DNA from: Beroe forskalii | Lineage: Eukaryota > Ctenophora > Nuda > Beroida > Beroidae | Direction: 5' to 3' | NCBI GenBank assembly: GCA_011033025.1 | Contig: WFMF01000110.1 | Coordinates: 1-64,000 of the forward strand | Length of the DNA: 64,000 nt | Notes under the pieces: generated by a model | Told to the model about the DNA's origin: nothing | The model's input: only the letters and a program-made list of their open reading frames with translations | The model's database searches: none | Position numbers and translations under genes: made by a program | In this document: positions 9,455-62,600 of the stretch, one piece after another | Position numbering within the stretch: position 1 is the first letter of the stretch | Layout of the letters: every line of letters starts with the position of its first letter

Positions 9455-12400
9455 CTAAAAATTAAAGGGGAATTAGAAATCGCCATTTTATGGAACTTAA
9501 AGTTCCGGGTCACGGGTGAAGGCTGAAAGGTTGTTTCAATTATGATATTTTCTTCCTAAACCGACATACTTCGAAGAATCACCTGATTTTACTAGGGAAA
9601 CAACTGCAGAATTAGAACGCAGTTAATGACAGAGTGAAAAAACCTCTCATCTACTTCTAACACTCATCTAACACTTAACATGAGGAAGTAGCCCAGGTCC
9701 GAGTCACGTGACACGTTCACGTGACACCTGGTCCCCACATGGCATATCACGTGACTACCACGTGGTAACCAAGTGGTAACCACGTGACTAATGTCTGAGG
9801 ATCTCCAAGTTTGGCATTTATCCAAGTTACCTGAACAAAATGAGGTAGGAGAAGATTGGCATTTCTCCAAGTTACCTGAACAAAATAAGGTAGGAGAAGA
9901 TTGGCATTTCTCCAAGTTACCTGAACAAAATGAGGTAGGAGAGGACAGCCACCAGAGCCACGGAGCAGGAGGCAGCAGTTCCAACCACCACAACCTTCCT
10001 GTCAGACTCTTCCTCGATATACTCTGAAGGAGGCAGATCATGGGTTTGGACATTCACATATATGGTTTTATGAGTGATATGGTCAAATTCGCGCGCAGTA
10101 CTTAAAATTTCGAGCTGGAATTGATCCAAGTTGTTAACCAGTAGAGGAAGGAAAGGCTAACCTCCTTGACTGAGGGTTGAGTTCTGTGACCAATCATCCA
10201 AGAAGTCACCTACCACCGAACGCTTCTTCCTGGGAAAAGAAAACCGATAAAGATATTATGTTGAATAGATTGATTGAAAACGCCCGGTGGGCGCTGGCAT
10301 GTGCCTCAATAGAAGTATCAAATATACTGATAACACAGCAAAAAGTCTGCACATAGCTCAAATTGAAAACTATCAAAACATAGAATTAAAAGCATTGACC
10401 CAAATGGCAAATAAGTTAAAAACACGATTAAGTGTTGCGCGTAACAAAACTCAGGTCCCCTCCTTACCTGGGATCCTCAAAATGAAACTGAACTTAACAA
10501 ATCGGCCGAAATAAAGTATAGCTTATTATACAGTGAAATTCAAACATCATACTTGGGTACGAGTGTGTTGAATTTTAATTGTTGCAGTGCTGTAATAGCA
10601 ATAGATTATCAGGCAATCAACCTATAGCTTCTATAATTCGATCGTGTTGCACTGTACAATTTCATGTTATTTAAATTTTCAAATAAAATACACAAAAATG
10701 TATTCAGAATATAGATTCCGCTTACTTATTGCCTTGACAACTAGGTCCAACTCTGACAGGCCCGTCGACTGCTGTGTTAGCGTTAGCGGCCTCGCCATTC
10801 AGATATTTATCTGAAGAAGTGAGCGATGAGGAAAATGTTGGAATCAGAGAAGGGTAAGTTCATACTACAAACTACAGTACAGAAGTGCTGCCACCCGATC
10901 AATATATGTCTTTATAATCGTCTGTAGTTAGGGATCGTTCACATATTATGTAATCAATTTTTTGCCGATTTTAACCCCCCTCCCCCTCGTAATCAAGTTT
11001 ACAGTAGTTGTATTTGTTACATTAACATGTAACGTAATCATTCCGAAACGCCCTCCCTCCCGCTAGGTGATTACGTAATAATGTGAACGATCCCTTTGTG
11101 AGCAGAAATAATAAAAATAGTTTAATATCATGCTCATATCATGCCCACCGATTTATGCAAGTGTCAAAAGGAATGAATTAAAGAGATTCAATGAATTTAT
11201 TAAATGAATTTATAAAACTATATATTTTCTTACTGCCATTGAATGTCACAGTGAGGATGAACTCAAGCTTCTGGTTTTCTGCATCATAGTTACACGTAGT
11301 CTTTTCTTTCACAAGAGTACAGGGAACTGAGGGGTCGACAATTAAACATGAGTTAAACGGGAGTTAAACAGGAGTTAAACGGGAATCAAACTGGAATTAA
11401 AACATAGAATTAAAACAAGGAATCAAAGATGGCATACGAACATGTGATAGTTGCTTAGCTGTCAAGGTAGTCCATTTTCAATGACCAGAGAAGGAAACGA
11501 ATCAAATGAAATTCTTACCCGAGGACAATTTTGCAACAAATTGTTTCAACATAACATTCAATGAGCGATCAACTACTTAATAAATTAGTATATCCAATTG
11601 TTTTCAGAGCTCAATAAATGATACATAAATCAAGTAAAGAACTAATAAACCCAATCCACTCACTTTCTGCCCCAGATTTCAAACACGTCGTCACAGGAAA
11701 GAAGCCACAGGTTTGACCAGATGCGGACTCACCACGCAGCACTGAGTTAATATTCGCTTTGGTGTATGCTTCCTTACCAGTCGTCGCAGTATCTTGACAG
11801 AGCTGCAAATGATAACATTCTTACAGTTCTCAAGACACTGAAGTTTAAACGAAATAACTGATTCGAGAGAATTTTAATCAGAAGCTTTCGAAAATCTTGT
11901 GATTAACGTCGTCATACACCTTCTTACAGGTTTATGAAGTTAAGATTCATCTTCGAACTCCAAAAGCGGAATTATGACTGAAAAGACAGTTTTCTAGCGG
12001 TAAATTTGAAAGCTCGGAAAATCAAAGTTTTTCTCGTTCCGTTCGACAACTATAGTACTTTAGACGCTCAAAGCCACTTTAAATCCTTTAAATGTCACCA
12101 GCTGCGCTGTCGACATTTAAATTGTATAAAGCCGTGCTGTCGCAGGGCCTTATGTTTTCTGCAAGTTCGTCTGACGCGTCTAAAGTACATATAATATCCT
12201 TCTTGAGAATTAGTGGACACATCAGTTCAAAATACCGTAACAGAACACGGAAAAATACACGAAACGATGGGTCAGTGGTGCAGGTATGGTATCGCTTTGG
12301 GCACAGGATCGATGGATCATGAGTTCGAATCCCGGCCAGCGCCACTGAGCTAAGGGTGAGAGATTTATCTCGTGCCTATGCAGCCCAACGGTTCACTCAG

Positions 12401-59600: not shown

Positions 59601-62600
59601 CTGGCGCTGGCGACCCGGCCAAGTCTCGACTTTCTTGATATTACAATATGAGAATATGGGTTGCGCGTGCACTCCATGTCCATAACTCAACATACAAACA
59701 CTTTAGGGCCTATGTTTATCAACAAGTCGTATATGAGCATGACCATTGTGAACATATAAAGTTGAAAACCAAGTCTGTATTCCACCTTCTTGGGCCGAGA
59801 TAGATTTGTACATTTTTGTACATCTTTTGTACATTCTTGTACATTTTTACCCAGTAAATCTGAAAGTGTACAAAAATTAGTATGTACAAAAATGTACAAA
59901 AATTACGTTGGCCCCCCCCCCCCCTATATACGTTATACGTAGTTATACGAAGTTATGTGTTATGACGGATCCCTTATACTCTTAAATTGATCTATTGATC
60001 GATTAATTCTTTCAGGGAATATATGTCTCATCAGCTTGAGACCGTTAGCCTTAGTCACTGCTAATACTCGTTTGTTCATCATCAAACATCTGGTTCTGAG
60101 TCCTCCACTCCCTCCACTTTCAGGTGGAAGGAACCTTTGTCTGAGTCCTCCACTCCCTCCACTTTCAGGTGGAAGGTACCTTCTCTGAGAAGTACGTGAC
60201 TACGACAGTTGATTGGAAGTATCAGCTGAGCGGGGCATCTGATTGGAACCCACTGACCGACCTGGGCAGGTGAGTCGGGTGGTTACCATGACAACAGGTT
60301 ACCATGACAACAGGTTACCATGACAACAGGTTACCATGACAACAGGTTACCTTGACAACAGGTTACCATGACAACAGGTTACCATGACAACAGGTTACCA
60401 TGACAACAGGTTACCATGACAACAGGTTACCATGACAACAGGTTACCATGACAACAGGTTACCTTGACAACAGGTTACCATGACAACAGGTTACCATGAC
60501 AACAGGTTACCTTGACAACAGGTTACTATGACAACAGGTTACCATGACAACAGGTTACCATGACAACAGGTTACCATGACAACAGGTTACCATGACAACA
60601 GGTTACCATGACAACAGGTTACCATGACAACAGGTTACCATGACAACAGGTTACCATGACAACAGGTTACCATGACAACAGGTTTCCATGACAACAGGTT
60701 TCCATGACAACATGTTACCATGACAACATGTTACCATGACAACATGTTACCATGACAACAGGTTACCATGACAACAGGTTACCATGACAACAGGTTTCCA
60801 TGACAACAGGTTTCCATGACAACATGTTACCATGACAACATGTTACCATGACAACATGTTACCATGACAACAGGTTACCATGACAACAGGTTACCATGAC
60901 AACAGGTTACTATGACAACAGGTTACCATGATAACAGGTTACCATGACAACAGGTTACCATTGTACCCTGAGCAGGTGAGTCCTGTAAAGACATTTGAGA
61001 TGAGAGGGTTTTTTGCTTGCTTTCCTTAATCTTAGAGATATATCAGCGTATATCTGTTATTTTCTCAATTATAGACATTGATTGAATGAAGTTTCAAAGC
61101 CTCAATAGTTGTCTCTTGGTGGAATCCGAGCAATTTAAGTACGACTATAAAAACGAGATTTAATCACTACAGATTCACTGTCCCCACCTCCTCCTCTTCC
61201 ACCTCCTCCTCCTCCAGATTCACTGTACTCTCCTCAGTAATACCTGCGCGCCTCTACCACTTAACCCTCCCTCCTCAGATTCACTGTCCCCACGGAGGAG
61301 CTGAACGAGGGTATTCGGAGCAGTAAAGTCCGTCTCACGCAGCTGGAAACGGCAGACGAACAGATGCAGGTGAAGTGCACCGTAACCTACACCGCGGACA
61401 CCGGAAAAGCAGTGTTCGGCGGGGACCTGGCCGACGCCATCACCCTCAACCTGGGATATGTCACCGAGTTCACAGCAGACAACGACGAAGTGATATCTGG
61501 CAACGAGTTTACAGTCACGTGCAAGGCGAAAGCTGGCTCTGCGCCAACTTTCTACATCGCCACGAGTGAGAACGATGATAACCTCGACACGAACCTGTTT
61601 ACGGAGGGAGATAAGTCGGCAGTGTCTGATAGCGCGGGAGTGTACAGCCAAGACATTACGCTTACGAGTCATGTGCCGCGCATAGCGGGGCAGACTATCT
61701 ACTGTGTGGTGAGTAGGAATTTGTAGCTTTATTTTCATCTTGTTCGGCGTTGATAAGTTGATAATGAGATATTTGAGACTGAATTATGACTGATTGATGA
61801 TAACTAGTCTGTCTCAAAATTATTGCAATTTATAGTAATTTGTTATAAAAGTATAAAAATTCGGTCGGCATTATGGTTGACAACTGAGTCAGCTTGGCTA
61901 AACGCACAACAAAACGTATAGGCTTCTGGATCAGACATTTCCTTGGCCCCTTGGGTTTTACAATCGATGCCAACTCAGTACTATTTCACTCCGATTAGGA
62001 ACTCTGACTAAATTCTCAGGCTAATTACGGTGCCAGCAGCGGAAGCGCAAGGAAATCACTTTTAATCAAGACTTTCTACGACTGCAGTCTCGCAACCTAT
62101 ACGACACCAGGTCTGCAGTCCGTGTGTTACGTTATTATTGGGGGGGGGGGGGGGGCCGGGGGTCGAAACCCGGTGGATATAAAAATTGGCACATGGGGTT
62201 TTAATTTTTCGGGGTTTATAGGGATTTTTGGTGTTGTGGACGTTGTTGTAAAAATGTTACACACATTTTGACGTTCGCACAAAGCGAGTATTCGTGCGCG
62301 TTCTTCAGTCTACATATCACGATGATGGTTACAATACATCGTCTTATCCGAGTCTGGACCTAGCGTGGTCCCGTGTCCCCAGGCACGGGTCGCTCCGTTT
62401 GGTCTAACTCTAATCCGGGTTTTACCGTGCTTATAGTGTGTGCAATACAAAACAAGGTCGTCTTTTCAGCGAACGTGCAGGTGGCTAAAACTTTGGAAGA
62501 TTCCGGCACTACAGTCGTTCGAACAGCAACATGCTCAGATCCAACAACCCAAGAATTCATGAGCGACGACACCGAGAAGGTGAGACCTAAAGCCCTTGCA

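Follow-up and report, generated by a model that had tools for sequence, protein, structure and literature searches.

We analysed a window of 64,000 nucleotides (positions 1-64000 of contig C111, WFMF01000110.1) from the 216-Mb assembly of the ctenophore Beroe forskalii, in which minisatellite arrays lie across or beside the predicted exon-intron borders of a giant immunoglobulin (Ig) domain gene. The window holds this gene and an inverted partial copy of it:

28979..64000, + strand, continuing to about 72.7 kb of the contig: predicted many-domain Ig transmembrane gene with about 48 exons (gene finder)
9921..27139, - strand: inverted partial duplicate of the Ig gene (self-alignment and gene finder)

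Exons were called with a gene finder that was written for the present analysis and self-trained on 274 kb of the contig. Its + strand prediction overran into downstream exons and the excess was trimmed by eye. All junctions given below are predictions from the gene finder and from reading by eye. Three stretches of the predicted protein matched Pfam Ig families above the curated cut-off. In the first stretch a match (300-381) crosses the join at acceptor 38328 (residue 356), in the second one (432-517) that at 47781 (about residue 497) and in the third one (11-86) that at 55135 (about residue 39), so these three junctions are supported by Ig matches that run across them. Reading by eye shows a hydrophobic stretch in the product of the last large exon and, after that exon, a short basic tail exon; in the left copy the predicted transmembrane exon is 9921-10023.

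The inverted duplication comprises the 3' part of the Ig gene and pairs window positions 12076-27306 with 48444-64000. Contig positions 72051-72316, outside the window, pair with window positions 9807-9942 within the same duplication. Identity between the left (minus) and right (+) copies is 95-98% in most aligned segments and 83% in 26334-27306. An earlier sequence-only reading had described a recurrence of splice-site repeats in one gene. The recurrence at borders holds, but its host is a gene together with its inverted partial duplicate (12-27 versus 48-64 kb). Hence paired arrays in the two copies are not independent: the 45-bp donor, 41-bp and 21-bp array pairs and the pair at 14949 and 60281 are each one array seen twice.

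Arrays across and beside splice borders

Tandem Repeats Finder (TRF) returned 72 rows in the window. For counting we used merged arrays of the + copy with a period of at least 9 and a score of at least 60 (n=28). Seven of these 28 lie across a predicted junction, which is an acceptor in five cases (38214, 42440, 51712, 54048 and 60095) and a donor in two (42119 and 72051). The array at 42440 counts as a straddler only after extension by eye, its end in TRF being 42582, and a triplet at 61169 fell under the score threshold and was left out of this count. The arrays across borders in both copies are the following:

9807..9942, - strand: 45-bp unit, 3.0 copies, straddling the donor of the transmembrane exon (donors 9831/9876/9921)
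Contig 72051-72316, outside the window, right copy: paralogue of the 45-bp donor array, 5.9 copies
18577..19046, - strand: 41-bp unit, 11.4 copies, straddling an acceptor, left copy (TRF)
54048..55145, + strand: 41-bp unit, 26.6 copies, straddling an acceptor, right copy (exon-side acceptor 55135)
20320..22959, - strand: 21-bp C-rich unit, 128 copies, straddling an acceptor, left copy (TRF)
51712..52834, + strand: 21-bp unit, 55 copies, straddling an acceptor, right copy (exon-side acceptor 52831)
38214..38342, + strand: 62-bp unit, 2.1 copies, straddling an acceptor (38266 decoy, 38328 exon side)
42119..42281, + strand: 23-bp unit TTTTCT/GTAAGT, 6.9 copies, straddling a donor (donors 42127-42269, exon side 42127)
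42440..42652, + strand: irregular array straddling an acceptor (42477 and 42577 decoys, 42641 exon side)
60095..60189, + strand: 45-bp unit, 2.1 copies, straddling an acceptor (60124 decoy, 60169 exon side; not duplicated in the left paralogue)
61169..61290, + strand: acceptor copies at 61173, 61218 and 61279 (one in the left paralogue)

In the straddling arrays the unit holds the splice signal together with a few exon bases, as in CCCCAG/GATA at 51712 (the slash marks the splice border), where the exon reads GATATTG. The sequence-only reading had located copies of the splice site inside the tandem units of border arrays, and our reading of the sequence places them as claimed. The 45-bp donor unit reads ..CTCATTTTGTTCAG/GTAACTTGG on the minus strand and its exon-side copy ends exon 9921-10023. 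The 41-bp unit (18577-19046, 54048-55145) carries CTCTAG or CCTCAG/GTATAAGGGAG.., and the 42440 array has CCCCAG/CCATCA three times (42477, 42577 and 42641) plus weaker AGs. The 21-bp unit (20320-22959, 51712-52834) reads CCCCACCCCAG/GATA, and 260 overlapping matches to a four-C-run pattern were found in this array. These C-rich arrays have G-quadruplex potential on the opposite strand.

The remaining 21 arrays of the + copy are purely intronic; six of them lie within 10 bp and ten within 30 bp of a junction. Arrays beside a border include:

31767..33740, + strand: 45-bp unit, 42 copies, ending 4 bp before predicted exon 33745
33877..34730, + strand: 13-bp unit, 66 copies, starting 29 bp after donor 33848
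38481..39037, + strand: 13-bp unit, 43 copies, starting 17 bp after donor 38464
47638..47776, + strand: 17-bp pyrimidine-rich unit, 8 copies, ending 4 bp before exon 47781
53303..53493, + strand: 11-bp unit, 17 copies, starting 4 bp after donor 53299 (left copy 19662-19851)
60281..60961, + strand: 16-bp unit, 43 copies, starting 11 bp after donor 60270 (left copy 14949-15325)

The four arrays that start after donors, at 33877, 38481, 53303 and 60281, had already been pointed out from the sequence. Additional border arrays that had escaped attention lie at 31767-33740, 45530, 46133, 47638-47776 and 53146. The arrays at 53303, 45530 and 46133 are AT-rich. Some arrays without a comparable splice signal in the unit end at one, for example 31767-33740 (..CCGGCAG/GTATTG) and 47638-47776. 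The region 60270-60985 consists of CAG/GTTACC-like 16-bp units with the strong donor CAG/GTGAGTC on both flanks, its second copy lying at 60976.

Comparison of the paralogues revealed that the large arrays occupy matching borders in both, with different copy numbers: 5.9 right versus 3.0 left for the 45-bp donor array, 55 versus 128 for the 21-bp acceptor array and 26.6 versus 11.4 for the 41-bp acceptor array. The exon predictions correspond between the paralogues at the compared arrays. At 60095 there are two acceptors in the right copy and one in the left, and CTGAG flanks the duplicated unit both on its intron side and in the exon; the left copy also lacks 5 bp of the pyrimidine tract. From its sequence this two-copy/one-copy difference looks like the outcome of slippage or end-joining at ordinary microhomology, and loss in the left copy may be an alternative. 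At 61169 three acceptors in the right copy correspond to a single one in the left, and the extra sequence lies between two identical 18-bp splice-site repeats. The inner part of this extra sequence is missing from the left copy and is found nowhere else in the window, which makes contraction in the left copy more likely than simple duplication in the right. The left copy lacks the extra sequence exactly between the 18-bp repeats, as a clean contraction would leave it; alternatively, an insertion with target duplication may account for the difference.

Many of the inner copies score on a par with the exon-side site. All six donors of the 72051 array score 5.0, all three acceptors at 42440 score 10.5, both at 60095 score 9.7, and those at 38214 score 4.8 and 4.4. 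At 61169 one decoy even outscores the exon-side acceptor (11.1 versus 8.7); at 54048 the exon-side acceptor is the top one (8.2) among the AGs scanned. Use of the neighbouring copy would extend the exon by 62 nt at 38214, 23 at 42119, 64 at 42440, 41 at 54048, 45 at 60095, 61 at 61169 and 45 at 72051. Five of these seven extensions are not multiples of three and the other two (60095 and 72051) bring an in-frame stop. The neighbouring decoy thus adds a frameshift or an in-frame stop at seven of the eight borders examined, the exception being the 21-bp array, which in the frame of the exon stays open for 66 codons in the right copy (a seven-residue repeat) and for only 5 in the left.

Border arrays and chance

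Whether the border arrays of this locus exceed chance hinges on the choice of null. We used two, one testing overlap under uniform placement or circular shift and one in which arrays were collapsed to insertion points and barred from exons. With the former, 6 of the 28 + copy arrays overlapped a junction at 0 bp against 9.9 expected, that is without excess, and the 0-bp test gave no significant excess in any of six gene territories. Within 30 bp the + copy had 16/28 against 11.8 expected at a score of at least 60 (P=0.045 by shift, 0.076 by independent placement), which was not significant at scores of at least 100 or 150 (P=0.09-0.14). The minus copy had 7/9 against 4.1 (P=0.0175 by shift, 0.0435 by independent placement; score of at least 60 only). 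In the contig's four other gene territories, which hold 25 arrays, the border overlap test found no significant excess. We think that uniform placement is unfair to border arrays, since a long array dropped at random will cover exons.

With the collapsed null, straddlers in the + copy exceeded expectation (7/28 versus 2.2, P=0.004), as did intronic arrays with a gap to the junction of up to 10 bp (6/21 versus 0.83, P=7e-5) or up to 30 bp (10/21 versus 2.4, P=7e-6); the Fisher combination of the gaps gave P=0.0013. At a score of at least 100 the figures were 7/17 for straddlers (1.6 expected, P=5e-4), 3/10 for gaps up to 10 bp (0.5 expected, P=0.009) and 6/10 for gaps up to 30 bp (1.4 expected, P=3e-4). 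This test includes edits made by eye: exon start 52831 was corrected, the 42440 array was extended to 42652, a predicted exon inside an array (67092-67206) was dropped and the tail exon was added. The P values are optimistic, since the locus was picked for its striking look.

Across the genome we searched for three copies of a 9-mer splice word with 6-36 bases between them, using the same words read backwards or shuffled as controls. The word CAGGTAAGT gave 101 tandem hits, in at least 12 arrays among the 100 places listed, and its reverse 13 hits in 3 arrays. For CAGGTGAGT there were 407 hits versus 54 for the reversed word and, among the places listed, all but 7 were in contig C77. TTTTTCAGG gave 68 hits in 8 arrays, 53 of them from one array on contig C201, and none when reversed. 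A few long arrays account for most of the hits. Of two shuffled words and their reverses, one pair yielded 0 and 25 hits and the other 5 (3 or 4 arrays) and 0. In arrays, five control words stood at 0, 0, 0, 3 and 3-4 (the sixth was counted in hits, 25) versus 12 and 8 for CAGGTAAGT and TTTTTCAGG. Taken singly, the words were 1.3-fold (1734 versus 1365), 2.1-fold (2375 versus 1139) and 1.4-fold (4929 versus 3472) more frequent than their reverses. Given these single counts, the 20 arrays of CAGGTAAGT and TTTTTCAGG together versus 3 for the reversed words yielded P=0.003 (donor alone 0.049, acceptor alone 0.014). By word counts, with flanks not tied to exons, these results support an excess of tandemly repeated splice words across the genome, with the caveat that splice words are genic and that genes may be richer in arrays.

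Repeated splice words therefore reach beyond the Ig locus. Two further cases were found by eye in other genes of the same contig. At 157031-157125 the donor ..CACAAG/GTGAGTGGG is duplicated with a 43-bp unit, at an exon that reads as coding though the gene finder missed it. At 130018-130067 an acceptor is duplicated with a 24-25 bp unit at a predicted junction.

Origin and persistence of the border arrays

Minisatellite-like repeats across splice borders have a precedent. Such repeats, called mirages, were named in the amphioxus Adh gene (Adh3) and reported in the globins BflGb6 and BflGb9, with copy-number differences between haplotypes and regular splicing apparently undisturbed (PMC3087553), and they were compared with repeats in troponin C and PGBD5 (PMC3902484). 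In the available parts of these two papers, on which our comparison draws, the name is used for lancelet genes only. The arrays of the Ig locus match mirages anatomically, and the idea of such border repeats is already described in amphioxus. In both systems minisatellite-like repeats with units of tens of bp and more lie across donors as well as acceptors, many copies carry AG/GT signals and the copy number varies (PMC3087553, PMC3902484). In our locus the unit spans the border in 7/28 arrays and in the 61169 triplet, both 5' and 3' borders are affected, the copies carry AG/GT, and the variation in copy number is seen between paralogues only (left/right 3.0/5.9, 128/55, 11.4/26.6, 1/2 and 1/3). 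The differences are that our host is a ctenophore, that many arrays with up to 128 copies sit in one gene, and that the variation is between paralogues instead of alleles or somatic cells. Our literature searches found no published ctenophore case of such border arrays.

We consider it probable, at roughly 0.62, that the border arrays are mirage-type minisatellites which arose by ordinary tandem duplication and expansion and are tolerated since the true border is preserved by the copy on the exon side. First, a piece of 10-60 bp that contains the splice site would be doubled through slippage or end-joining at short direct repeats. The copy adjacent to the exon would retain the intact exon edge and the splice signal, leaving the protein unchanged, and the other copies would turn into intron. 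As intron sequence the array would be free to expand, contract and homogenise, and recombination between outer copies could delete it again and leave a clean junction. Exon definition and the removal of frame-broken products are general knowledge and underlie the expectation that splicing would occur at the exon-side copy; misuse of other copies would mostly be cleared through frameshift or stop and nonsense-mediated decay. In this account we infer in which order and direction the events ran, which site splicing uses, and what lies behind any added enrichment. The sequence-only reading had proposed a mechanism or a tolerance specific to splice borders. The tolerance is well supported, as the border is retained at the exon-side copy and the remaining copies lie in the intron. 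A border-specific mechanism is not shown, because the difference at 60095 fits microhomology slippage and the four other gene territories were not significant.

Several observations weigh against this explanation. Under pure tolerance about 2 straddlers and 2.4 near-border arrays would be expected in the Ig gene, against 7 and 10 observed, so that something beyond tolerance may be needed; a modest added bias towards borders is suggested but unproven. The extra sequence at 61169 cannot be produced by simple duplication of the left state, and the changes at 60095 and 61169 may have run in either direction. In addition, the 21-bp array of the right copy is open for 66 codons, so use of decoys would not be blocked there.

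If the borders themselves attracted duplication, through C-rich pyrimidine tracts with G-quadruplex potential, R-loops at donors or CAG/AG microhomology that raise the duplication rate, then the excess over the collapsed null in the Ig gene, the 20 versus 3 arrays of tandem splice words (P=0.003) and the 260 four-C-run matches in the 21-bp array would be accounted for. Several border arrays are AT-rich (53303, 45530 and 46133), however, the four other territories lack an excess, one shuffled control word also gave 3-4 arrays, and ordinary microhomology accounts for the difference at 60095. The roughly three- to fourfold excess over the collapsed null hints at such a bias, but here it is inseparable from the selection of the locus for its looks, and we regard a mutational bias as rather unlikely. 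A wider version of it, in which border minisatellites throughout this ctenophore genome stem from a splicing- or R-loop-linked process that favours splice junctions, and in which amphioxus and ctenophore mirages share one mechanism of intron growth and turnover, appears quite unlikely to us.

Coincidence offers another account: an array-rich, exon-dense locus was noticed afterwards, predicted junctions were drawn to arrays, and some copy numbers reflect assembly error. The lack of excess under uniform placement (6/28 versus 9.9 expected) and in the other gene territories agrees with this, as does the fact that the junctions are predictions. Yet the collapsed null and the genome-wide word counts do show an excess, the splice signal has an equal position in the unit and at the exon, and large arrays occupy matching borders in both paralogues, which leaves coincidence very unlikely. 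Selection might instead keep the arrays as decoys, as splicing regulators or as a means of varying exon length in frame in a recognition-type Ig receptor. The many decoys that score like exon-side sites, the 66 open codons in the right copy of the 21-bp array and the nature of the host, a large Ig-domain gene in which a transmembrane exon is predicted, speak for it. Neighbouring decoys disrupt the frame at the other seven borders examined, however, in the left copy the matching frame of the 21-bp array ends after 5 codons and copy numbers differ widely between paralogues, and we hold such a role to be highly improbable.

Other known systems resemble the border arrays in part, as judged from the accessible portions of the papers. 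In intron gain by tandem genomic duplication (Rogers model as cited in PMC3087553; potato RdRp case, PMC4974935), the duplicated segment likewise holds splice signals, but here an existing border was multiplied; at the arrays compared, the paralogues have corresponding predicted exons and show no new intron between duplicated copies. Human segmentally duplicated genes show tandem-repeat changes at exon-intron boundaries, with minisatellite-type border repeats that differ between recent paralogues; there exons were altered or new introns formed, whereas here exon edges appear unchanged (PMC2812944). The intronic minisatellites CeRep25B of C. elegans also lie near splicing decisions, but are one shared repeat with suggested regulatory motifs, whereas here each array has its own unit (PMC4039745). 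As to introner elements, no dispersed near-identical units were found within the window, where arrays differ in unit except for the inverted duplicates. Repeats have also been described in the first intron of an earthworm metallothionein gene (PMC12783039), which we did not use as a comparison.

Recent paralogues in which small arrays are present or absent form a natural series for the multiplication and clean-up of splice borders, and such a series also tests whether introns grow from their edges. The tandem splice words across the genome suggest that this series is larger than the Ig gene.

Further observations on the assembly

On contig C77 two long CAGGTGAGT arrays with a spacing of about 36 bp lie in opposite orientation (417548-420317, +, and 453471-455730, -), a pair that resembles the inverted-duplicate layout of the Ig locus. 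In a TPR-like gene on contig C111 (144190-144480) both ends of an intron carry a copy of a 27-bp exon piece, TTACTCYAAGTTGAATCGCCACGAC.., and the intron also holds a 43-bp array of 3.2 copies with TTTTTCAG (144299-144435). We considered this intron as a gain by tandem duplication, found no canonical in-frame junction by eye and make no such claim. Judged from their translations, long open reading frames at about 75-79, 147-151, 168-195 and 216-226 kb of contig C111 have the look of reverse-transcriptase-type retroelements.

No tRNA was detected by ARAGORN on the mitochondrial contig C1134 (13,339 bases, 17.5% G+C), in which, by reading, COX1 has in-frame TGA codons and AGR at usual-arginine positions. 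According to the available part of one report, translation table 4 is the code assumed for ctenophore mitochondria, the sequenced ones are without tRNAs, and the GC content in Beroe forskalii is 17.3% (PMC6991124). Contig C1134 thus fits a ctenophore.

Positions 1-514 of the window form an AT-rich array that matches its own reverse complement, a long near-palindrome. Finally, a 2.7-kb array with a GGTTAGCTAGGG-type unit of telomere-like look lies at 67094-69793 of contig C111, within a predicted intron of the Ig gene.

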